From assembly GCA_030673895.1 (NCBI GenBank), contig JAUTCR010000059.1:1-64000 (forward strand): DNA of 64,000 nucleotides, read 5' to 3'. Source of the stretch: Verrucomicrobiota bacterium JB023. Its GTDB lineage: Bacteria; Verrucomicrobiota; Verrucomicrobiia; Verrucomicrobiales; Akkermansiaceae. Below the pieces are notes generated by a model. It was not told the origin of the DNA, did not search any database, and saw only the letters and a program-made list of their open reading frames with translations. Positions within the stretch are counted from its first letter, which is position 1, and every line of letters begins with the position of its first letter. The position numbers were made by a program, and so were the translations under genes. Below, one piece after another: positions 36,161 to 47,798 of this stretch.

Positions 36161-36832
36161 CTAGGAGTCCTTACTTCCTCCGCTCAGCTTCCCCAGCAGC
36201 TTGGTCAATCCATCGTAGGCGGAGATGGCCTTCCGCTGATGGTTTTCACGCGCGGTGACCATAATGGCCCGGCAGCCCGTTTCACTCTTCGCAGGCAGAT
36301 GGAGAGTGCCAGGTTCGGCGCGGAGATAGTCGCCGGCCTGCAAGGTTCGTCCCGCCGTCGTCAGCTCACCGCTGACGAGGTAAACTTCCTCCGTCCCCTT
36401 GTGGGCATGCGGCAGAAAGGTAGCTCCCGGATCCGCCTCCAAGAGGATGAGAGCATGGCCAGCAGCGGGATCATCAGAGAGGGTCTTCAAGCGAATTTTT
36501 CCTCCGGGGAGAGATTGCCACTCCCCTTCATCATTTCCAATGAAGTGATAACCCTTGTTCACCTTGGGCTTCGCCTCTTCATCAATTTTCGCGAAGATCT
36601 TCTCCTTAAGCCCCGCAGGAGGCTCGACAGGCGGATGCATTGACGCGGTGATCGCGGCTGAGGCATCCTCAAATCCCTCGCTCGCGAGCAGGGCTTTCCC
36701 TAACGGGCATTCAAGGCAGTGCTCCATCCCGGCCGCATCCGCTCCATCAAGCGTGTGGGCCGCTTGGGCAGCGGTCAAGTTGGCGACGATATCTTTGGGG
36801 GAAGAATCTTCTGGCTCTTGGGTATTCATCAA
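36161..36832 (-). CDS. Cupin-containing anti-sigma factor (ChrR-like)
   Basis: A 223-residue protein 15 bases after an ECF sigma gene. The C-terminal half is a cupin: FLPHAHKGTEEVYLVSGELTTAGRTLQAGDYLRAEPGTLHLPA holds the HxHxxxxE and distant His ligands expected for bound metal. The N-terminal half is helical and has HCLECPLGKAL, a Cys pair that differs from the classical zinc-finger anti-sigma motif. ChrR holds its sigma factor inactive and releases it on singlet oxygen or peroxide stress; the same job is inferred here. Met2 (36829) is an alternative start. Confidence 0.83.
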   Translation of the reverse strand: MMNTQEPEDSSPKDIVANLTAAQAAHTLDGADAAGMEHCLECPLGKALLASEGFEDASAAITASMHPPVEPPAGLKEKIFAKIDEEAKPKVNKGYHFIGNDEGEWQSLPGGKIRLKTLSDDPAAGHALILLEADPGATFLPHAHKGTEEVYLVSGELTTAGRTLQAGDYLRAEPGTLHLPAKSETGCRAIMVTARENHQRKAISAYDGLTKLLGKLSGGSKDS

Positions 36833-36847
36833 AATAGTCCGGACGAT

Positions 36848-37486
36848 TTAACCTCCGGCATTGTCTTTCAGTAATAAACGAACGCGCTCCATGCCTCTTC
36901 GGATGCGTGATTTTATCGTACCCAACGGCTGATGTAAAAATTCTGAAATCTCGGTCTGGGTCAAACTGTGAAAATAAGCAAGCTCCAACACCCTTCTCAT
37001 GTCGTCAGGCAACGCTTTGAGAGCCTCGCGGACCTCCTCCGCCTGTTCGGAGGCGATGAGAGGTGAATCGGGCCTGGGCTCGGCATTCTCAATGAAATTC
37101 TCCTTCCCCGCATTCTCATGCAATTGCTCCCGCCGCTGGCGGGAACGCAGATGGTCGATGGCTTTATTGCGGGCAATGGTGATGAGCCAGGTCGTTGCCT
37201 TGCCCATCCCTTTGTCGTATTTCCCAGCCTTGCGCCAGATTGAGAGAAAGACCTCTTGAAGGACTTCTTCAGCTTCCGCACGGTTTTTGACAATCCCAAG
37301 AACGATGCCGAACAGTGCCGCCGAGAAGTCATCGTAGAGGAGCGAGAAAGATTCCCGACAACCGGTTCCTACGGCAGCCAATAGCGTTTCAGGGTTCTTT
37401 TCGGGGGTCATTAGCGTTGTTGCGGAACCGTCTTCTCTGGGGGCGAACTCTCCACCTGAAGCGAAGTCACCATGGATAAGCTCCAT
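36848..37486 (-). CDS. ECF-family RNA polymerase sigma factor
   Basis: About 212 residues from Met 37486; Met 37411 would give 187 residues with a more typical N-terminus, so the start is uncertain. Region 2 is CRESFSLLYDDFSAALFGIVLGIVKNRAEAEEVLQEVFLSIWRKAGKYD...KATTWLITIARNKAIDHLRSRQRR. Region 4 is LKALPDDMRRVLELAYFHSLTQTEISEFLHQPLGTIKSRIRRGMERVRLLL. It pairs with the downstream cupin anti-sigma factor, like the RpoE-ChrR (ECF11-like) systems. It lies 120 bases downstream of the TPR gene. Confidence 0.92.
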   Translation of the reverse strand: MELIHGDFASGGEFAPREDGSATTLMTPEKNPETLLAAVGTGCRESFSLLYDDFSAALFGIVLGIVKNRAEAEEVLQEVFLSIWRKAGKYDKGMGKATTWLITIARNKAIDHLRSRQRREQLHENAGKENFIENAEPRPDSPLIASEQAEEVREALKALPDDMRRVLELAYFHSLTQTEISEFLHQPLGTIKSRIRRGMERVRLLLKDNAGG

Positions 37487-37608
37487 ACGCGAGTCTTCGC
37501 ATGATGCAGACCAAAAAAAATCCCCTGAACACAGCAAATCGCTAGCTCAGAGGATCCAAGGCTCAAGCAAATCGCAAGATTGCTCTGGCGTTTTGCATCG
37601 CTAAAGAG

Positions 37609-38979
37609 TCACTCCATCTTTCCGCTGAGAATTTTTCTCGCCTTGGCTGCGAACTGTGGATGGAAGGCGGGATTGAAAGACAAGGCCTTCGCCAAGTGCT
37701 TTTTCCCCTGTGCCTCATGACCGGCTTCGAACTCAATCACCCCGATTCGGTAAAAGAGCATTGGGTCGGGGGTCTGATAAGCCATTGCCCGCTTCCCATG
37801 CAGTTGCGCGAACTTCAGGTTACCGGATTGATAGTAGCACCAGGCTAAGGCCATCTCTGAATGGATGTTAGGGAAGTTCTTCTGACACTTCTTGGCCTGC
37901 TCAAGGGCGAAATCCAACTGCTTCTCCCGATCAGCCAAAAATAGGGCAAGCTGGTGGGAGCCAAGCTCTTCATGACTATGCAGATGATCTCCGCCGTGGT
38001 GATGCACGCGATGCATCGTCAGCAGCTCCTCGGTCCGCCGTTCAGCCTCCTTGGTCTGCCCCAACATCTCATGCATCAGGACGAGGGACTCGAGAACTTC
38101 ATGATTCTTGACGATGTCATGCGCCTTCTTAAAGGAGGCCAATGCCTCCTCATACTTCTCCTCGCAGACGAGGAGACGCCCCTCGGCCAGCAACACATGG
38201 GGATTATCTGGAGCCAGCTTGAGAGCCTGCTCCACCTCCGAGCGGGCGGAGGGAAGCGCCCCTTCCTTCACATGCATTTCAGCGAGCTTGGCCCGGCACC
38301 AAGCCTCATTTTCAGGATAAGGACCACCGGCCTTAATCGCCCGATTCATGAAGACTCGCGCGGAAGGCCGATCACCGGTCAACCAGAGAAGATGAGCCGC
38401 TCGGCTAAAGGTGGAAAGATCCGCCTCGATATCCATTGCAGACTGGAAGTGAGCGAAGGCCTCATCGTAGCGACCGAGCTCGACAGCCCCGTCCCCCATC
38501 AGGTTGTAGGCATTTTTCAGTCGGGGATCGATTGCGAGAGCCTTCTCGCACCACTCTTTCCCCGCCGGGAAATCGTGATTCGAATTTGCCACCCAGCCCA
38601 TCCCCAAAAGAGCCTTGGGGTTCTCTTCCTCTAGGGCCAACGCGCGCCGATAGGCGGCTTCGGCTTCTGAGAAGTTATGGGAGGCAACGTTACGAGCCTC
38701 TTGCATGAGTCGGTCGCCCTCGCGGACCCACTCTTCCGCAGTGGTGAAGTTGGGTTGGGCTCTCTCCTCCTCTTTTATCGGCTCATGATGAGACGACGCC
38801 TCATGGGCGACAGCGCCCTGCACCATAAAGATCGAAATCAGATAGAAGATGATGGTGATGCTGAAAAAAATTAGACTCACCCCCCGGGAAAGAGGTCGGT
38901 ATTTGTCACCACTTTCAGGGTTCTCCCGTCTTGCAGGATCCGTCTTCGCTCCGCTCATTAGATTGAATCTGTTTTTCAT
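37609..38979 (-). CDS. Membrane-anchored TPR-repeat protein
   Basis: A 456-residue protein. After a positively charged N-terminus there is one hydrophobic segment (about residues 34-55, VSLIFFSITIIFYLISIFMV) that can act as a signal anchor. It is followed by at least seven TPR units (for example AEAAYRRALALEEENPKALLGMGWV, YDEAFAHFQSAMDIEADL and YEEALASFKKAHDIV). A His-rich stretch HRVHHHGGDHLHSHEELGSH (about 330-350) could bind metal. It probably scaffolds protein complexes on the outer face of the membrane. A large terminator-like hairpin ends six bases before its ATG. Confidence 0.87.
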   Translation of the reverse strand: MKNRFNLMSGAKTDPARRENPESGDKYRPLSRGVSLIFFSITIIFYLISIFMVQGAVAHEASSHHEPIKEEERAQPNFTTAEEWVREGDRLMQEARNVASHNFSEAEAAYRRALALEEENPKALLGMGWVANSNHDFPAGKEWCEKALAIDPRLKNAYNLMGDGAVELGRYDEAFAHFQSAMDIEADLSTFSRAAHLLWLTGDRPSARVFMNRAIKAGGPYPENEAWCRAKLAEMHVKEGALPSARSEVEQALKLAPDNPHVLLAEGRLLVCEEKYEEALASFKKAHDIVKNHEVLESLVLMHEMLGQTKEAERRTEELLTMHRVHHHGGDHLHSHEELGSHQLALFLADREKQLDFALEQAKKCQKNFPNIHSEMALAWCYYQSGNLKFAQLHGKRAMAYQTPDPMLFYRIGVIEFEAGHEAQGKKHLAKALSFNPAFHPQFAAKARKILSGKME

Positions 38980-38983
38980 CGTT

Positions 38984-39052
38984 AAAAAAAACCGGAGCCA
39001 GCTCGCCTAGTCATGCCCACACAAACATGTCCTGCCGCGAGCCGGTCTCCGG
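38984..39052 (-). terminator. Strong terminator/attenuator hairpin directly before the TPR gene
   Basis: On the minus strand, CCGGAG-a-CCGGCTCGC pairs with GCGAGCTGG-CTCCGG (15 bp, one bulge and one G-U pair) around a 30-base loop. It runs into eight U residues that end four bases before the TPR ATG. The position between the DUF4331 and TPR genes would end the upstream transcript or act as a leader attenuator. Confidence 0.8.
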
Positions 39053-39077
39053 CGTCTATTCGCTATTTCCTATCCTG

Positions 39078-40529
39078 TTAAGGTGCCATGCGCTGGGTCA
39101 CTGTTGTTCCCGCGTGGGGAGTGCCTAAGTAAGGGAAAACGGTGTTGTACAGCTGATCGTTCGAATCGATGTTGTCACCTACTACGGTAATCGTTTCGTA
39201 GGTAGGGCCACTGGCAATTGCTGACAGGGCAATGTCGACAACGTCATCGCCGATGCGTCGACCATTGGGCCAGCCCGCCACGTCACCACCAACCACGCTC
39301 AAGCGATTGAATCCCTCTTGCCCGGGAAGAGCAACTGGTCCTGTCGTCGTATCAACCCGGATCACATCCGGGATGAAGATGGCGGCCAAGTCAGCTCGCT
39401 CCGTCCCGACGAGAGGCTCGTCGCCTTCCACATCGCCGAAGAGGATAATGTTAATCAGAGCGGCGAGCTCAGGATTCTCCGCATAGGTGCTGAACTGAGC
39501 GTCAGTCGTCGGTGGAAGCATGTTGTAACGGTCCTTGTCCGCGAGAGCGACCAAGACCTCATTGAAAAGAGGATTAGCTAAGCGATTCACCTGCACCCAG
39601 GGACCGCTGTTCACATTGGCCCGTCCGGCATTACGGATCGTATAGCGTCGGCGGCTGACGGAGGCATAGACCCCGACTCCGGTTTGCTCTCCGAGGAGAG
39701 GATTAGTGAAGGTGTAAGTTTGGAGGCTATCGATAGGAATCTGGATAGCATAAGTCAGGACATTGAACCCCTGGAAGCCGTCCACGCCACCACCATCTTG
39801 ACCCAGGCCGTCACTCATGTCTCCGTCGTTATCAACGATGCGAGGATTGAGGAAATCGAAGATACCCGGCGTATCGGCATAGAACCCGTCCTCGCGAGGA
39901 CCAGCCCATACCACGACTCCAGAGTCGAGGGGTGAAATAGCCTCTGCGGTGAGCGGATCGAGACTATCAAAGTCCGTTGCTCCCGATACCGCGTTGCCGT
40001 CTTCATCGTTGTAACCAGGCGTGGTCAAGGCTCCGACATTCGGCGGAGGCACGAGCAGACTACTGCCAATCACAACCCCGTTTTTTCTCACGGTGTAGGT
40101 CTGGGTGTAGTTCTGCTGGGCATCACCAATGGACATGATGGGTCCGGCTGCGGTGCCCAATCCGTAGGAAAGAATGGTATTCGGATTCTTCACCGGTCCC
40201 GACACACTGGAGAAGTCGAAGTCATAGCGGTCGACGACATCACCGGTGTTCGGATTCGTGATATGGATTGTGTAATAGGCATCATCGGCAAATCGTTGCC
40301 AGATGAGTCCGTCACCAGGATCCGAGAATGGTCGGACGCTAACGAGAACGTTAAGAACCTGCTGATTGGGGTTATCATAACGGGTGCCGACGAAGGCGTA
40401 AACATCCGTCAAGTTCGCAGATGGATCCTGCTTGATGAGAGGAGCGTCACTGTGGCTTGATGCGCCAAGAGAGCTCATCCCAATCATCAGGATTCCAGCT
40501 CCGATTATTTGTTGTTTTAATTTTTTCAT
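39078..40529 (-). CDS. DUF4331-family exported protein
   Basis: A 483-residue protein with a signal peptide (MKKLKQQIIGAGILMIGMSSLGA). The DUF4331 N-terminus SSHSDAPLIKQDPSANLTDVYAF is diagnostic. The rest is beta-rich, with repeated NPNTGDVVDRYDFDF-like strands and RTDQ/ERADLAAIFIPDVIRVDT near the C-terminus. The family has no established function and often sits beside TPR and ECF sigma genes, as here. It is preceded by a PEP-CTERM gene 20 bases upstream, so the two are probably co-transcribed. Confidence 0.92.
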   Translation of the reverse strand: MKKLKQQIIGAGILMIGMSSLGASSHSDAPLIKQDPSANLTDVYAFVGTRYDNPNQQVLNVLVSVRPFSDPGDGLIWQRFADDAYYTIHITNPNTGDVVDRYDFDFSSVSGPVKNPNTILSYGLGTAAGPIMSIGDAQQNYTQTYTVRKNGVVIGSSLLVPPPNVGALTTPGYNDEDGNAVSGATDFDSLDPLTAEAISPLDSGVVVWAGPREDGFYADTPGIFDFLNPRIVDNDGDMSDGLGQDGGGVDGFQGFNVLTYAIQIPIDSLQTYTFTNPLLGEQTGVGVYASVSRRRYTIRNAGRANVNSGPWVQVNRLANPLFNEVLVALADKDRYNMLPPTTDAQFSTYAENPELAALINIILFGDVEGDEPLVGTERADLAAIFIPDVIRVDTTTGPVALPGQEGFNRLSVVGGDVAGWPNGRRIGDDVVDIALSAIASGPTYETITVVGDNIDSNDQLYNTVFPYLGTPHAGTTVTQRMAP

Positions 40530-40549
40530 AGGGAGAGTGGGCTGGGAGG

Positions 40550-41056
40550 TTAAGCTTTGCGGCGGCGGCGAAGGAGGGCGAGGCCACCGAGAGCCACGAG
40601 TGCGGCGCTAGTCGGCTCAGGAATTAAATTGACCGTAGAGGTCCCGGAGAATTCTCCGAAGGTATCAGTGAAACCCTGGAAGGATGCGAAGAAGGACGGG
40701 TCAGCCTCCGTCTGGAAAGAGAATCCAGACACAGAGCTACCCGCGACGAAGTTCGACGCTTCCGCATTCAAGTCCAGTGTTCCGAAGCCGGGATCGTAGT
40801 CGATGGTGAAGCCGACCGGACTCATTGCCGTCGAGGGCAATAGGAAGTCATTGACCGGAGCATCCGGGAAGTTGACGTTGATCAAATCGTCTGGGCAATC
40901 GTTGACGACAGTGACGTCATACTGAAAGGAGCCATCCCCGAGAGTGAGATAGTCGATATTCACCAAAACGGTTGAGGCTGATACGGTTCCTGCAGCCAGC
41001 AAGCCGAGGAAAGCGGGAGCGAGCCGCTTGGTGAGGATAGGAGGTGTGAATTTCAT
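40550..41056 (-). CDS. Small PEP-CTERM secreted protein
   Basis: A 168-residue protein with a signal peptide (TKRLAPAFLGLLAAGTVSAS), a beta-rich core, and the C-terminal tag NLIPEPTSAALVALGGLALLRRRRK for exosortase sorting. The core (DYLTLGDGSFQYDVTVVNDCPDDLINVNF...) has no recognised domain. It is probably first in the operon with the DUF4331 gene; its function is unknown, and a surface or matrix role is inferred from the tag. Confidence 0.87.
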   Translation of the reverse strand: MKFTPPILTKRLAPAFLGLLAAGTVSASTVLVNIDYLTLGDGSFQYDVTVVNDCPDDLINVNFPDAPVNDFLLPSTAMSPVGFTIDYDPGFGTLDLNAEASNFVAGSSVSGFSFQTEADPSFFASFQGFTDTFGEFSGTSTVNLIPEPTSAALVALGGLALLRRRRKA

Positions 41057-41189
41057 GGTAATTTCGGTTCGGGAGGGCTGGGTGACCAGCCACTAACCAA
41101 GCAACGAGGGCCATCGGAAGACGGATGCAGGAAACTCAATTTTTCTGGCTCAGGCTCGACAGCCAGCGGCAATTCTTTAAACCGTGCCG

Positions 41190-42497
41190 ATGCGGATCGG
41201 CCTTGCCCTAGCAATTGCTTTATCACCCAACCTCTCGTTGGCGGAGGGGGTACTGCGCCCCTACACTGGTGCGCAATCAGCAGGAAGCGCCGGAGCCCGG
41301 GCAGGAACCTCGCATGATCCTCTCGCCAACCCATTGACCAACCCGGCGGCCCTAACCCTCGGAACGGGAACCGAATGGGTGGTCTCCTCGACAACGGTGA
41401 TTGGCGACGCCACCTTCGAGCGCGCGGGCCAGAGCTATCATTTGAACGATGGCTGGGGCATCATCCCCGAGGCTGGCATCACCGGGCGCTTCGGTGAGAC
41501 GCCCGTCTGGTGGGGGCTTTCCATCTCCGCAATCAGCGCCCTTCGATCGGACTGGGGCTACCCCGATGTGGCTGGCGGCATTGGCGGAATCAATTACGGA
41601 GAAACCGGGAATGAGAGTCAATTCCTCGCCCTTGCAGGCACCTTTTCCGCCGCACTCAGGGTCAATGAGCAGCTCTCGATCGGAGCCAGCCTCTCGGCTG
41701 TTTACAGCGAGGTCGGGTTCGACGCTCCCTTTATCTTCCAGACCAATCCTGCTCTCGCTAATGCCAAGGTCGATCTGGACATGGAGACGGATGGCTGGGC
41801 TCCAGCGGTCGTGCTCGGAGTCCTCTGGCAGCCGACAAGTGCCCTCAGCTTTGGAGCTTCGGTTCGACCGGAAATTGTTCTGGAGAACGAAGGCTCCGCT
41901 AAGGCCGACTTTTCCGCGCAGCTTCCTCCTCTGGGTCTCGCCGGCACCGATCCTCTCGCCAGCTACCACGCCGAGTCCCGTAATGTTCTCCCGCTCGAGG
42001 TCGGGGCTGGTGTGACGTGGCAGGCGACAGAAAAGCTCAGCTTATCCAGCTGGCTCGCTTGGACACGATGGAGCGAGGCTTACGATGTCTTCGAGGTCAA
42101 TCTCAGTAAGGGCTCGAATGAAGCAATCAACGGGGCAATCGGCGATTCCCCTTCGGACGGCGTCCCTCTCCGGTGGAAGGATCGGTTCACCCTCTCAATC
42201 GGCGCGGAATATCAGCTTGCGGAGGAATGGGCCATCCGTGCGGGCTGGCAATGGTCGGAATCCCCTATCCCGGAAGACCTCGTCACCCCCTTGAATGCCG
42301 CGATCCTGGACCAAAGCCTTGGCCTGGGAGCCAGTTGGCAAGGCCAATCCGGCTGGTCCGTCGATCTTGCTTACAATTATGACTTCTCGACAGAAGCCCA
42401 TATCACAAACAGTGGCTACAATGCTGGCGAGTATTCCAACAGCTCAGTGGATCTCTCGGCCCACTCGGTAAGTGTGAGCCTGGGGCAACGCTTTTGA
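41190..42497 (+). CDS. FadL/OmpP1-family outer-membrane porin
   Basis: About 435 residues from the ATG at 41190 (a GTG two codons earlier is possible). A signal peptide (MRIGLALAIALSPNLSLAEG) is followed by the TodX/FadL N-terminal signature (GAQSAGSAGARAGTSHDPLANPLTNPAALT). Amphipathic strands then end in HSVSVSLGQRF with a terminal Phe, as expected for a 14-strand barrel. FadL-like porins take up hydrophobic molecules such as fatty acids or hydrocarbons. It is divergent from the PEP-CTERM/DUF4331 operon, with about 130 bases between the starts. Confidence 0.88.
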   Translation: MRIGLALAIALSPNLSLAEGVLRPYTGAQSAGSAGARAGTSHDPLANPLTNPAALTLGTGTEWVVSSTTVIGDATFERAGQSYHLNDGWGIIPEAGITGRFGETPVWWGLSISAISALRSDWGYPDVAGGIGGINYGETGNESQFLALAGTFSAALRVNEQLSIGASLSAVYSEVGFDAPFIFQTNPALANAKVDLDMETDGWAPAVVLGVLWQPTSALSFGASVRPEIVLENEGSAKADFSAQLPPLGLAGTDPLASYHAESRNVLPLEVGAGVTWQATEKLSLSSWLAWTRWSEAYDVFEVNLSKGSNEAINGAIGDSPSDGVPLRWKDRFTLSIGAEYQLAEEWAIRAGWQWSESPIPEDLVTPLNAAILDQSLGLGASWQGQSGWSVDLAYNYDFSTEAHITNSGYNAGEYSNSSVDLSAHSVSVSLGQRF

Positions 42498-42651: not shown

Positions 42652-45600
42652 TTAATTCGTAGCAGCTGGACCACCTTCCACTCTCAAGCGGGCGAAGAGT
42701 TTGTCTTGATCCGTTCCGCTGGTATCTAGCGTGATGACGACCATCTCGAGCGGTGCGCTCAGGCTGGTGACCATTCGGTCTCCCATCTCATTAGGAGTGA
42801 AGACAACCAAGTCGGGCGAGGTCTCAAAGATATCGCTGCCGGCCGGGACCTGCTTCACGCGAGGGTAGCTCAGCGTCAGTTCGCTGCCGTCGGCGGAGAA
42901 ACCGATAGGGTTCTCATCCTTCGCCTCGGGGTCGAGTCCCATCAACCACTCCAAGCCATTGGCAAGGCCGTCTCCCTCGGGGTCATCCTCGGGATCCCGC
43001 ATGTCAACCGGCGTGGCTTCGGTGAAGTTCTCGCTCACCCAGTCTGCATACCGGAGCACGCTCACTTCGAGAGCACCCATGTCGACTCCGCCTCCGATGG
43101 CTCGCATGAAGCCCATTCCCCGCTGATCGGTGGTCAGGCTAGCTGCTGCTGCCGCATCACCTGCGTCAACGACAGGGCTAATATCCGAAGGGCGATGAGT
43201 GGGCGTGAGGCCGCCATTATCAGCCAAGGAAGAAAGCAGCGGGTCCTCACCGACGATGTTGCCATCGACGAGGTCCACGATGCCCGATGCGCCGGACGCA
43301 TTCTCCAGTAAGCTGTTCATAGCGACCACCATTCCTGCAAGATCCGGGCCAAGTTCTGCAGAATTATCGGCAAGAACGGAATTGACCGCACCGAAGGATC
43401 CCGACGCGACGTTCGCTCCTCCACCCGTCATGGCCGAATTGCCAGCCACGGTGACGTGGAGAAGGTTCATGGTTCCGCCCTCGATCTGGATGCCTCCGCC
43501 ATTGGTTGCGGTGTTCCCGGAGAGCGTGGAGTTCGTGACAGTGGTCACGCCATTACCAGCTTGATTGTAGAGTCCTCCTCCGTCTGGCGAGTCGTTGCCG
43601 GTAATCGCCGAAGCAGAAACCGTCAGCGTGCCCGCTCCGGAGTTCCAAAGACCTCCGCCCTCGTTGGCGGCCGAGTTTCCATCGAACCATGATGTCGAGC
43701 TGACGACTTCACCATCTCCCGAGATGTGAATCGCGCCCCCGTTGCCAGGTGCTGCCGAGCCCTCTGGGCCAGCGACGTTACCCCGCATGATGGCAGTGGT
43801 GATCGTCGTTGACGTTCCGCCCGTCACTTCCAGGGCACCGCCCGCGCGATTGGCCATGTTGTTGAGAAGCATCGTGTCACTCAGCTCAAGGGTGCCGCTG
43901 GCATCGCTGAGGATACCTCCACCGCTGCCCGAGGCACCGTCCGCGACGTTGCCCGAGATGACGGAGCCTTCCTCTACGATGAGCGTTCCGCCCGCATTGA
44001 AGAGGCCTCCCCCGCCCTGGTCGGCGGCGTCTCCGCTGGCCACGTTGTTAGTCAGTGAGACTCCGGTCACAGTCATCATGCCGCTTCCATTCCAGAGGCC
44101 TCCGCCTTCTGCTGCGGCCAGGTTCCCTTCGATCATGCCTCCCATGATGGTGGCGTCTCCCGGACCCGTGATGTGGAGCGCACCCCCATTGCCCGGAGAG
44201 GCCGTGGCAGGAGATACCCCCGTATTGTTCGCCATGAAGTCAACATTGGTGAGCATCACCCCGCCATCGGCCCCGGAATTATCTTCAATGCCACCGCCCG
44301 CGCGGTTGCTGACATTCTGGGAAAAGGTCGAGTCGGTGACCGTGAGGGTACTACCGACATCGTTGAGAACACCTCCTCCGCTGCCGGCAGTGCCGTCAGC
44401 AACGTTGAGGGAAAGCATGGAGTTCTTGAGTTCGATGGCGCCTCCCGCATTGAAGAGGGCTCCTCCCCCTTGGTCGGCGGAATCGCCGCTGGCTACGTTC
44501 TCAGACAGGGTCACCCCGTCGACAACCATGAGCCCGGTCCCATTCCAAAGACCGCCACCCTCGGCAGCGGCCAGATTGCCAGAGACCTCGCCCCCGGTGA
44601 CCATGACGTTGCCCACTCCGCTGACGTGGAGACCGCCCCCATTGCCGGGAGCTGCCACCGCGGGTGAGACGCCGACGTTGTTATCATTCAGCGAGACATT
44701 GACCAAGGTGATCGCCGTTCCCTCGCTCAAGGCAGATTGATCCTCAATGCCGCCGCCGGCCCGGTTGGCCACGTTCGAGGTAATGGATGAATCCGTGACG
44801 CTCACGGTTCCATTCGTCAGGTTGAGAATTCCTCCACCACTACCCGCTGTCCCTGAGGCGACATTACCCGAGACAATGACGGATTCCTCGAGAACAAGCG
44901 TCCCGCCATTGTTGAAGAGGCCTCCGCCTCCATCGTGAAGTTCGTCCCCTTGGGCCTCGTTGTTAGAGATTGTTGTGCCGTTCACCGTCAAGGTGCCCGA
45001 GCCATTCCAGAGACCTCCGCCTTCCAGAGCCGCGATGTTGTTGCTTACCATTCCTCCTGTGAAGGTAGCGTCGCCCGGACCGGTGATATGGAGGGCTCCA
45101 CCATTACCAGGGGCAGCTACGGCAGGAGCAGTACCTGCGAGATTGCTATCCATGGTGGTGTCGGTCACCGTCAAGCCCAGGCCTTCGCCCGAGTTATCCT
45201 CGATGCCGCCGCCCGCACGATTGGCTCGGTTACTAGAGATATCGGAGCCAAAAACGGAGACGACGCCGCCAGCGTCATTGAAGATTCCGCCTCCGCTACC
45301 GGAGGCTCCGTCTGCGACATTGTCGACAATCTCAGTGGCATTGGTAATCGTTACCGTTCCACCAGCATTGAAGACACCCCCACCACCTTGGTCCGCAGCG
45401 GCACCGCTGGCGGTATTCATCTCAATCGTCACTCCGTTAATCGTCATCAAGCCGGAGCCATTCCAGAGTCCGCCGCCCTCAGAGGCCGCGACATTGCCGC
45501 TCACCAATCCACCGAGGATGAAGACGTCGCCAGGGCCGCTCACGTGGAGGGCGCCACCGCTTCCCGGTGCTCCAACCGCCGGAGTCACCCCGGCATTATT

Positions 45601-47400
45601 GTCGCTCAAGGTTGTCGCGGTCAGGCTGAGACCAATCTCTTCCCCGGAGAGACCGGAGGCTTCTTCAATCGCTCCGCCCGCCCGATTGGCGAGATTGTTA
45701 GAAAAGGTCGCTCCGGTGATCGTAGCCATCGAACCGGTCGCATTCAGCAAACCGCCTCCGCTGCCGGAGGTGCCCGTCGCGGAGTTGCGAAGAATCATCA
45801 CGGCTCCATCGGTATCGTCGATTTCGAGGACCCCTCCATTGTTGAAGATGCCACCGCCTCCGTCATCGGCCGCATCGCCGAGCGCCACATTATCTGCAAT
45901 GAGAGCGCCTCCGGTTACGGTCATCGTCGACCCGGCCTGATTCCACAGACCACCGCCCTCGCGTGCGGCCTGATTGTATCCGACGAGTCCACCGGACACC
46001 GTGATCATCGCCTCTCCAGACACATGGAAGCCGCCGCCATTCCCGGGAGCAGCCGAGCCATCAGGTCCGGCAATATTACCGTCTTCAGCTTCGTCCCCGC
46101 CCAAGAAGACATTCATGAGCGAGAGACCACCATCAACGAGCTCGATGCCACCACCTGCGCGATTGGCGACGTTGGAAGAAATCTCGACATCAGTCAGCGT
46201 GACCATGCCGTCGGTGCTGAAGATACCTCCACCACTGCCCGAGGCACCGTCGGCCACGTTATCGGCAATCGTACCGCCATCAATGGTCAAGGTGCCTCCG
46301 TTGTTGAAGACACCACCACCCCCATCATCAGCAGCAGGCCCGCTGGCCACGTTGTCCGTGATGCTCGTAAGATTGATCTCCATCAGGCCCGAGCCATTCC
46401 AGAAGGCTCCACCCTCGCGCGCCGCCACATTGGCATCAGCGCTGCAGTTAGAAATTTGCATGGAACCAGAGCCGGTGATGTGGATGGCCCCGCCATTCCC
46501 GGGAGCAGCCGTCGCCATGGGAGACACCCCCGCATTGTTCGCCGTGAAGGTGGCGCCAGTCAGCACGATATCAAAACCTTCCATGCCTCCCGACTGGTCC
46601 TCGATGGCCCCGCCGGCCCGATTAGCCACGTTACTGTCGAAGTCCGTATCGGTCACCAGAAGCTGGCCGCCGGAAGCATTGAAGATTGCGCCGCCACTAC
46701 CCGAAGGACCACTCGCGACATTGCCATCGAAGCTTGAATCGACGATTGTGACGGTTCCTCCGTTATAGAGTCCGCCTCCATCGACAGCTTCGCATCCACT
46801 GACGTCGACATTGCTCAGGGCAACGGTCTCATCACCTGCGATGAGCATGCCTCCGCCATTTCCTGACGAGAGCCCGTTGGCGAGCTCAAAATTCATTAAC
46901 TCAACCACCCGGTTACCTCCGGCAGCGGCCGAGGTATCGATGGAGATGAGACGGGTCATGCCACCACCGTCAAGGACGGCCTGCCCGACCAAGGCATCGA
47001 AAGGGACGCCGCCATCAATGACGACATCATCAGTGATCACCAGCTCGGAACCCAGCGAAATCGAGGGCGGAGCTAGTAGGAAGGAAAGAGGGTCAAATGA
47101 GATAGTATCCCCATCATCGTCCCCTCCGTCAGGTCCATTTAAATTAGCAAGAGCAATGGCCTCGCGCAGTGACAAGCCATCGCCATCTCCTTGCTCGGCA
47201 GCCAAGGTGCCTCCGTCATAAGCCTCGTCGTCGGAGGTGGTCACTTGATAGTCGACCGCATGCAGAGAGCCTGCGGAGACAAGCCCAAGAACGCCGACCA
47301 GGATAGTCCTCATGCTTGAGGGACGGCCATCGAGCCGTGCCTGTCCCGAACCGAGGCGAAGCCGGCCGGGTGAGTGAGTGTTTAGTGATTTGGTTTTCAT
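42652..47400 (-). CDS. Giant secreted beta-helix protein with seven supra-repeats
   Basis: About 1,582 residues from Met 47400; Met 47313 (MRTILVGVLGLVSAGSLHA) is the cleaner signal peptide and an equally possible start. A CSLREA-like N-terminal motif (DGLSLREAIALANLNG) is followed by seven copies of a unit of about 153 residues. Each unit carries NRAGGxxE, GNGGAxHxxG and AAxEGGGLWN coils of a right-handed parallel beta-helix. A choice-of-anchor Q stretch follows (NGGLTPTHRPSDISPVVDAGD...DQRG), then a DPEGDGLANGLEWLMGLDPE C-terminus. It is probably a surface or matrix adhesin or polysaccharide-interacting protein. There is no PEP-CTERM tag. Confidence 0.88.
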   Translation of the reverse strand: MKTKSLNTHSPGRLRLGSGQARLDGRPSSMRTILVGVLGLVSAGSLHAVDYQVTTSDDEAYDGGTLAAEQGDGDGLSLREAIALANLNGPDGGDDDGDTISFDPLSFLLAPPSISLGSELVITDDVVIDGGVPFDALVGQAVLDGGGMTRLISIDTSAAAGGNRVVELMNFELANGLSSGNGGGMLIAGDETVALSNVDVSGCEAVDGGGLYNGGTVTIVDSSFDGNVASGPSGSGGAIFNASGGQLLVTDTDFDSNVANRAGGAIEDQSGGMEGFDIVLTGATFTANNAGVSPMATAAPGNGGAIHITGSGSMQISNCSADANVAAREGGAFWNGSGLMEINLTSITDNVASGPAADDGGGGVFNNGGTLTIDGGTIADNVADGASGSGGGIFSTDGMVTLTDVEISSNVANRAGGGIELVDGGLSLMNVFLGGDEAEDGNIAGPDGSAAPGNGGGFHVSGEAMITVSGGLVGYNQAAREGGGLWNQAGSTMTVTGGALIADNVALGDAADDGGGGIFNNGGVLEIDDTDGAVMILRNSATGTSGSGGGLLNATGSMATITGATFSNNLANRAGGAIEEASGLSGEEIGLSLTATTLSDNNAGVTPAVGAPGSGGALHVSGPGDVFILGGLVSGNVAASEGGGLWNGSGLMTINGVTIEMNTASGAAADQGGGGVFNAGGTVTITNATEIVDNVADGASGSGGGIFNDAGGVVSVFGSDISSNRANRAGGGIEDNSGEGLGLTVTDTTMDSNLAGTAPAVAAPGNGGALHITGPGDATFTGGMVSNNIAALEGGGLWNGSGTLTVNGTTISNNEAQGDELHDGGGGLFNNGGTLVLEESVIVSGNVASGTAGSGGGILNLTNGTVSVTDSSITSNVANRAGGGIEDQSALSEGTAITLVNVSLNDNNVGVSPAVAAPGNGGGLHVSGVGNVMVTGGEVSGNLAAAEGGGLWNGTGLMVVDGVTLSENVASGDSADQGGGALFNAGGAIELKNSMLSLNVADGTAGSGGGVLNDVGSTLTVTDSTFSQNVSNRAGGGIEDNSGADGGVMLTNVDFMANNTGVSPATASPGNGGALHITGPGDATIMGGMIEGNLAAAEGGGLWNGSGMMTVTGVSLTNNVASGDAADQGGGGLFNAGGTLIVEEGSVISGNVADGASGSGGGILSDASGTLELSDTMLLNNMANRAGGALEVTGGTSTTITTAIMRGNVAGPEGSAAPGNGGAIHISGDGEVVSSTSWFDGNSAANEGGGLWNSGAGTLTVSASAITGNDSPDGGGLYNQAGNGVTTVTNSTLSGNTATNGGGIQIEGGTMNLLHVTVAGNSAMTGGGANVASGSFGAVNSVLADNSAELGPDLAGMVVAMNSLLENASGASGIVDLVDGNIVGEDPLLSSLADNGGLTPTHRPSDISPVVDAGDAAAAASLTTDQRGMGFMRAIGGGVDMGALEVSVLRYADWVSENFTEATPVDMRDPEDDPEGDGLANGLEWLMGLDPEAKDENPIGFSADGSELTLSYPRVKQVPAGSDIFETSPDLVVFTPNEMGDRMVTSLSAPLEMVVITLDTSGTDQDKLFARLRVEGGPAATN
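43560..46760 (-). repeat. Seven diverged tandem units of about 460 bp within the beta-helix gene
   Basis: The AAxEGG(G)xWN coil recurs near 43661, 44106, 44561, 45021, 45477, 45957 and 46417, spaced 445-480 bp apart. Each unit also carries one NRAGG and one APG(N/S)GG motif. The copies differ mainly at synonymous and surface positions, which indicates old internal duplication. Confidence 0.85.
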
Positions 47401-47798
47401 AACTTTCGGTGGTTCAGGAATAGAAAAAACCCTCAACGAGCGTTGAGGGTTCGGAGATGAGAAGAGGGATGTGCCCCGGGCTAGTCGGCCCGATAGGAAG
47501 TGTTTGCCTCGGCATTCCTGCGTTCATCATCAAAAGCAACGCCTCCCCCCAGCGACCGGATGCATGAATCTCGTTTTTCTTCTGAAATCGCTCCGTGGCC
47601 CTGTTTCTTTCGAGACCTCGCGGGCAACTGAGGAAACGAGTTGGAGAAATTCTTGAGGATCAGGTGACCCGCTCCTCCCTCAACTAGGTCCGCAAGAGTT
47701 CGCCCGCCCAACGAATCAACCTCACCGGAAAGCCCCATCCTTGCTTTCGGCGCGCTCCCCTGCTTCACTCCGCCGCCTCAAGTAATCGAGCAAAAACT
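47401..47798. other. 398-bp divergent intergenic region
   Basis: It separates the leftward beta-helix gene from rightward glycyl-tRNA synthetase. It contains the leader hairpin at 47424-47451. Just upstream on the minus strand are two small stems (a GGGC/GCCC hairpin near 47476-47493, and AGGAA...TTCCT near 47499-47524). A 95-codon minus frame (47481-47768) has no family and is not called. No T-box motif was seen upstream of the synthetase. Confidence 0.55.
47424..47451 (-). terminator. Terminator-like hairpin in the leader of the beta-helix gene
   Basis: On the minus strand, AACCCTCAACG-CT-CGTTGAGGGTT (perfect 11-bp arms) runs into six U residues, 23 bases before the ATG at 47400. No gene is transcribed leftward just upstream, so it lies in this gene's own leader and may act as an attenuator. 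Confidence 0.75.

Follow-up and report, generated by a model that had tools for sequence, protein, structure and literature searches.

DUF4331 marks a widely conserved bacterial gene module with a likely role in envelope metal capture

Which task does an exported protein of the family DUF4331 perform, and why do genes for a sigma factor and a putative anti-sigma factor accompany it? This question is raised by positions 36161–42497 of a 64,000-nt stretch of DNA from Verrucomicrobiota bacterium JB023 (contig JAUTCR010000059.1), hereafter called the window. Profile searches confirmed a block of six genes there: five on the minus strand, encoding a PEP-CTERM protein, the DUF4331 protein, a tetratricopeptide repeat (TPR) protein, an extracytoplasmic function (ECF) sigma factor, and a ChrR-type cupin, and a divergent FadL gene on the plus strand. 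All six lie where the original prediction had placed them and belong to the families it had named. The Pfam name of PF14224 itself marks an unknown function, and DUF4331 is the sole Pfam domain of the window protein (match to model positions 1–421 of 421). A search of a paper library for the term DUF4331 found no paper, and the family is not named in the passages and sections of PMC12537917 that were consulted. We report here that these genes form a genuine module, conserved widely among bacteria, and that capture of transition metals in the envelope under ECF control would, on balance, be its best explanation.

Linkage of DUF4331 with its partners across phyla

The locus set comprised the best 80 of 513 DUF4331 relatives, ranked by similarity to the window with one genome per species, so that it leans towards relatives of the window and is not a random sample of the family. 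The record titles covered Verrucomicrobiota, Planctomycetota, Armatimonadota, Gamma-, Beta-, and Deltaproteobacteria, Acidobacteria, Gemmatimonadetes, Fibrobacteres, and others; DUF4331 itself ranges over Verrucomicrobiota, Planctomycetota, Pseudomonadota, Actinomycetota, Bacteroidota, Acidobacteriota, and others. Partners were scored within 5 kb of DUF4331, and 42 of the 80 loci had at least 4 kb on both sides; the counts for these fully flanked loci are given in parentheses. Alignment A3 contained 55 of the 80 loci (L050 and L103 were dropped for internal stops, and others for frame doubts or redundancy), and alignment A6 contained 39.

In two same-genus genomes (L024/L048, of which L048 is Roseibacillus persicicus KCTC 12988, and L026), the order of PEP-CTERM, DUF4331, TPR, sigma, cupin, and divergent FadL genes was unchanged. 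In other genera, the sigma and cupin genes were placed differently: divergent (L028), downstream (L030), or upstream (L031 and L034). The most frequent partner was the TPR gene, found at 58 of the 80 loci (34/42) and, in 55 of these 58, on the same strand and no more than 300 bp from DUF4331. An ECF sigma gene was found at 29 loci (22/42), a ChrR-type cupin gene at 18 (14/42), and a sigma gene together with a cupin or RskA-type anti-sigma gene at 24 (18/42). The nearest sigma gene lay upstream on the same strand in 13 cases, upstream and divergent in 11, downstream on the same strand in 6, and otherwise in 1; because its position and strand vary in this way, the association between sigma factor and DUF4331 evidently outlasts rearrangement. 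FadL occurred at 4 loci (4/42).

A further group of partners is related to metals. HupE/UreJ-2 was encoded at 26 of the 80 loci (13/42), DUF4198 at 10 (5/42), and NicO at 4 (2/42), and at least one of these nickel/copper-type partners was present at 39 loci; TonB receptors were encoded at 8 (4/42). HupE/UreJ-2 gave 62 matches in 42 of the loci's genomes (about 239 Mb), and it was located at 18 of the 42 DUF4331 loci of the searched genomes, whereas our own arithmetic gives approximately 0.1 expected by chance in the intervals examined.

Linkage was also evident on plasmids. DUF4331 is annotated together with a TPR or hypothetical protein and HupE/UreJ on plasmids of Marinobacter, a Comamonadaceae bacterium, and Lichenicola; a Streptomyces plasmid has the order DUF4331–TPR–NicO (nickel transporter); Miltoncostaea and Adhaeribacter plasmids carry DUF4331 with TPR, the latter also with TonB receptors; and a Pseudoalteromonas plasmid carries sigma, RskA-type anti-sigma, and DUF4331 genes. 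Because the same order occurs in two same-genus genomes and the linkage recurs in permuted orders in other phyla, chance does not account for the assembly of the block. The neighborhood comparison that had been suggested for DUF4331 thus bears out, over several phyla, the claim that it keeps company with TPR and sigma/anti-sigma genes far beyond this genome.

Some loci depart from this common arrangement. A tandem pair of DUF4331 genes accompanies TPR and sigma genes in L029 and L031. In Planctomycetota (L060, L065, L067, L073, and others), DUF4331 is followed by DUF4198, and no TPR gene was detected close by, which looks like a substitution of DUF4198 for the TPR/permease part. In four Rhodobacterales loci on plasmids of Sulfitobacter, Marinovum, and Paracoccus (L139, L144, L145, and L147), DUF4331 lies beside type II secretion genes, and a hypothetical protein of approximately 70 aa is also encoded beside it in L144, L145, and L147; in those plasmids, DUF4331 may be a secretion substrate.

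Mature N-terminus of DUF4331 and the promoter motif

After duplicates were merged and five proteins without a usable motif were set aside (four without an N-terminus and one without HxxAP), 106 of 111 distinct DUF4331 proteins (95%) had a signal-peptidase-type site (a small residue at −3 and Ala or Gly at −1, from which cleavage was predicted) immediately before Xxx-Xxx-His. No other offset between −10 and +10 had such a site in more than 42% of the proteins. Since the motif was the entry condition of this test, the result concerns the position of the histidine and not its conservation. The predicted mature tripeptide was Ser-Ser-His in 91 proteins and Ala-Ser-His in 15, and the motif was also found in relatives from Actinomycetota, Bacteroidota, and Alphaproteobacteria that share only about 26–34% identity with the window protein. 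A free amino-terminus with histidine at position 3 constitutes the amino-terminal copper- and nickel-binding (ATCUN) motif, and the mature Ser-Ser-His terminus of DUF4331 would be of this type. Judged by this exposed histidine and by its neighbors, DUF4331 probably captures nickel or copper.

Structural comparison added little to this picture. AlphaFold2 models of DUF4331 had predicted local distance difference test values of 84.7 (window protein) and 80.5; a Foldseek search with them returned no match at E ≤ 0.001, and the immunoglobulin-like sandwiches retrieved by VIA-align (Z ≤ 6.5) were treated as uninformative. A sequence search of the PDB found no relative, its single match having an E-value of 0.7.

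The upstream regions of three close orthologues contain common blocks, and a two-part motif, TGCATCC followed by 16 bases and CGTT or CGTA (TGCATCC-N16-CGTW), was noticed by eye in a wider set; the controls below were run on all 80 loci, which partly are those that suggested it. The motif occurred 25 times in the 80 loci (1.016 Mb), whereas each of 22 other spacings from 8 to 30 gave 0–3 matches and 60 scrambled versions of the −35 word averaged 0.6 matches and never exceeded 5. In 18 of the 25 cases, it lay directly upstream of a module gene, namely, whichever gene opens the DUF4331 operon (PEP-CTERM, DUF4331, or TPR), the sigma gene (L061, L071, L074, and L084, on the strand opposite to DUF4331), or a TonB receptor gene (in the gammaproteobacterium L122); by the rule used, the other 7 copies were not upstream of a module gene. 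A variant, TGAATCC-N17-CGTT, is present in R. persicicus. The motif is shaped like an ECF promoter and closely resembles that of Shewanella RpoE2–ChrR, given as TGATCC-N16-CGTA in a passage of PMC4336711; the linked sigma factors therefore very probably act on it and would in this way govern their own genes too. The exported DUF4331 protein very probably owes its expression to a dedicated sigma factor.

In the whole JB023 genome, an exact search at spacing 16 found three sites: one before the operon (41129–41103), one at 47564–47538, and one within an open reading frame (ORF). The other exact sites checked in this genome (eight loci, including those with looser spacing or TGAATCC) were inside or overlapped ORFs. 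A sigma-factor motif had been anticipated upstream of both 41056 and 41190; the former start has the copy at 41129–41103, whereas no copy was found upstream of the FadL start (41184/41190). With textbook ECF motifs, no site was detected upstream of the operon; the best word of a word search occurred in 9 of 17 loci against maxima of up to 10 in mononucleotide shuffles, which alone was not significant; a genus-wide motif search gave counts little above the control, and genome-wide matches with one mismatch (91 versus 44 in a reversed control) were judged to be mostly noise. In L107, L108, L109, L112, and L127, mostly Opitutia, the motif stands in reverse orientation approximately 15–220 bases before the TPR or DUF4331 gene, preceded by an A/T-rich stretch.

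The second copy in the window is perfect and stands 6.4 kb from the first. Downstream of it, the 117 nt from 47531 to 47415 fold at −42 kcal/mol (z = −4.09 versus shuffles), and a terminator scan detected an 11-pair terminator (47452–47427) that forms the 3′ end of a candidate RNA, just before the ATG at 47400 of a giant choice-of-anchor Q protein. Either a small RNA under sigma control or a leader subject to attenuation could account for promoter, folded RNA, and terminator, and the stretch is a candidate for one of these. The RNA had no match in Rfam and was not found as such in 57 relatives; in a search of 58 genomes, the lone match outside its own genome (E = 2.3e−4) fell in coding-like sequence. 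The neighboring ORF (42652–47400, minus strand) encodes 1594 aa of long near-repeats with a choice-of-anchor Q domain at the end, and its antisense strand also holds long open frames. The features of the window are listed in Table 1.

Table 1. Positions of the block's genes, predicted promoters, and candidate RNA in the window
Feature	Position	Strand	Basis
ChrR-type cupin, putative anti-sigma factor	36161–36832	−	Pfam Cupin_7, 59.7 bits (cut-off 27)
ECF sigma factor, 187 aa	36848–37411	−	Sigma70_r2/r4
Exported TPR protein with His-rich loop	37609–38979	−	
DUF4331 protein, predicted mature N-terminus Ser24-Ser25-His26	39078–40529	−	PF14224, 273.7 bits (cut-off 27)
Small PEP-CTERM surface protein, first gene of the operon	40550–41056	−	TIGR02595; homologues in L024 and L026
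Predicted ECF promoter TGCATCC-N16-CGTT of the PEP-CTERM/DUF4331 operon	41103–41129	−	Motif comparison
Divergent FadL/OMPP1 outer-membrane channel	41184–42497	+	PF03349, 122.1 bits (cut-off 29.7)
Second predicted ECF promoter TGCATCC-N16-CGTT, perfect copy	47538–47564	−	Motif search
Candidate sigma-dependent small RNA or leader, ~105 nt	47427–47531	−	Fold and terminator scan

The sigma ORF as listed extends from 36848 to a TTG at 37537, and its likely start is the ATG at 37411. The PEP-CTERM sorting signal scored 22.4 bits with NCBIfam TIGR02595 (cut-off 16) and 19.4 with the Pfam model, under its cut-off of 20.7. The TPR protein had been described as a His-rich membrane protein: its loop is indeed rich in histidine (8 of the 20 residues from 323 to 342), whereas its single hydrophobic segment is of the signal type, ending in AVA|HEASSHH, and the protein is better read as exported.

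Metal capture weighed against other explanations

The recurrent partners HupE/UreJ-2, NicO, DUF4198, and TonB receptors indicate metal handling. Passages of PMC12537917 (2025) describe HupE as a nickel uptake transporter, DUF4198 as binding nickel, and the extracytoplasmic N-terminal domain of HupE/UreJ-2 as binding copper and nickel through His1. Under a permissive rule, histidine at position 1 after a signal-type site was found in 22 of 26 HupE, 9 of 10 DUF4198, and 2 of 4 NicO neighbors. TPR proteins were rejected as general carriers of this feature, as it appeared in only 8 of 62 TPR rows under the same rule, plus the window protein by eye. The JB023 genome has a single HupE/UreJ-2 gene, whose product reads as histidine after a signal-type site, and encodes a nickel superoxide dismutase.

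From the linkage, promoter, motif position, and cupin ligands read in these sequences, a mechanism can be proposed in which we infer the cleavage, the metal binding, the direction of transport, and the inducing signal. The cytoplasmic cupin-type anti-sigma factor would hold the ECF sigma factor; once freed, sigma would transcribe the PEP-CTERM/DUF4331/TPR/sigma/cupin operon from TGCATCC-N16-CGTT, the promoter found by comparison, and, being encoded within its own operon, would make the system self-amplifying. The DUF4331 protein would be exported and cleaved by signal peptidase to begin with Ser-Ser-His, a free ATCUN-type chelator. In the envelope, this chelator could capture Ni(II), Cu(II), or a similar ion. 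The exported TPR protein, which in this lineage is rich in histidine, may serve as a scaffold or relay. The metal would then pass to a permease of the HupE/UreJ-2 or NicO type, whose gene adjoins the module in many relatives and lies elsewhere in this genome. The route through the outer membrane may be FadL here and a TonB receptor in others.

Several observations weigh against this proposal. The block in the window lacks a gene for a permease, the HupE/UreJ-2 gene of this genome lies on another contig, and a search of the genome for urease found none. No scored partner at all was found at 5 of the 80 loci (2/42), and the four Rhodobacterales plasmid loci beside type II secretion genes have neither HupE nor TPR annotated nearby. 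The N-terminal residues of DUF4331 are disordered in the AlphaFold2 models, which gave no informative fold match. NicO families include exporters, so that transport could run in either direction. The literature also lists DUF4198 genes in connection with iron limitation.

The same partners bear on the reverse possibility, that the module sequesters and expels excess nickel, cobalt, or copper instead of acquiring it. NicO-type permeases at 4 of the 80 loci would be compatible with export, and ECF factors for metal resistance exist, such as CnrH (4cxf), a weak relative of the window sigma factor (E = 4.5e−8). However, HupE is a nickel uptake transporter according to PMC12537917, and the TonB receptors at 8 loci suggest import, so that we regard detoxification as unlikely. 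It is still harder to favor a structural or partner-binding role for Ser-Ser-His, with DUF4331 as a surface or adhesion protein and the metal neighbors supplying something else. The type II secretion genes in Rhodobacterales and the PEP-CTERM partner do suggest surface roles, and conservation runs on past the histidine (SHxDAP); nevertheless, the motif is tied to the predicted cleavage site even in relatives at about 26–34% identity, a tie that internal structural conservation alone does not need, and this explanation appears improbable.

The original prediction had suggested a regulated envelope process that perhaps responds to oxidative stress through the metal-binding cupin. In such a system, the cupin would sense singlet oxygen or peroxide in the manner of ChrR, and DUF4331 and TPR would repair or protect the envelope. 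Several observations favor this reading. The best solved relatives of the sigma factor are Mycobacterium tuberculosis SigK (4nqw, E = 9.5e−29) and, second, Rhodobacter sphaeroides RpoE (2q1z, E = 7.9e−21); the promoter resembles that of Shewanella RpoE2–ChrR; and one catalase-family gene is present at the Adhaeribacter plasmid locus. Cupin residues His142, His144, Glu148, and His178 align with ChrR His141, His143, Glu147, and His177, the four zinc ligands given in a passage of PMC6852236, and among 23 aligned cupins the three histidines were invariant (23/23 each), with 19 Glu and 4 Asp at position 148. With these ligands conserved, the cupin could sense either an oxidant or the metal itself. 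However, the metal-binding character holds for the cupin ligands and does not extend to the ZAS zinc site of the ChrR anti-sigma domain (His6, His31, Cys35, and Cys38), of which an HCxxC-like remnant is left in a few close relatives and nothing elsewhere, and the window cupin scored 36.9 bits with the ChrR subfamily model TIGR02451, against a cut-off of 124.5. No oxidant-defense gene was present among the recurrent neighbor clusters scanned. At 6 of the 80 loci, the anti-sigma factor was of the RskA type; of the two regulators, sigma is therefore the one that stays more constant, and it is the sensor that differs between loci. With the recurrent partners pointing to metal, an oxidative-stress role is not supported and seems quite unlikely, and metal capture replaces it as the likelier role, an assignment that we consider reasonably probable.

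Comparison with known systems

DUF4331 may, as we tentatively propose, define an unrecognized, phylum-spanning class of envelope metal-capture modules, in which an exported protein with an ATCUN N-terminus and its TPR partner would feed interchangeable HupE/UreJ-2, NicO, or DUF4198 systems, in many lineages with its own ECF sigma factor and TGCATCC-N16-CGTW promoter, here also driving a small RNA. A family without known function thereby gains a concrete, testable hypothesis in the Ser-Ser-His metal site, together with a regulator and a promoter motif, and probable metal acquisition becomes linked to the ChrR-type cupin anti-sigma factors, a group familiar from oxidant sensing.

The DUF4331-linked sigma factors do not form one tight clade, and we therefore claim no single ECF group for them. 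The SigK–RskA system, which we take to be ECF19, resembles the module in that SigK is the best solved relative and an RskA_C anti-sigma factor replaces the cupin at some DUF4331 loci; it differs in that the window anti-sigma factor is a soluble cupin protein. The RpoE–ChrR (ECF11) systems of Rhodobacter, Shewanella, and Vibrio share the pairing of an ECF sigma with a cupin anti-sigma factor, the metal ligands of the cupin, and a related −35/−10 promoter with a 16-nt spacer. In contrast, the window cupin is without the ZAS zinc motif, the −35 element is TGCATCC rather than TGATCC, and the targets are the DUF4331 module. The anglerases, HupE/UreJ-2 proteins with an N-terminal His1 metal-capture domain that PMC12537917 describes together with DUF4198 and DUF6702, are, like DUF4331, exported with a conserved histidine at the predicted mature N-terminus, and HupE/UreJ-2 and DUF4198 occur in DUF4331 neighborhoods as well. 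However, DUF4331 is a separate family that is not fused to a permease, has its histidine at position 3 rather than 1, and is linked to ECF sigma control. Because defining features of both the anglerases and the ECF11/ChrR systems are not shared, we place DUF4331 in neither and treat it as a family of its own.

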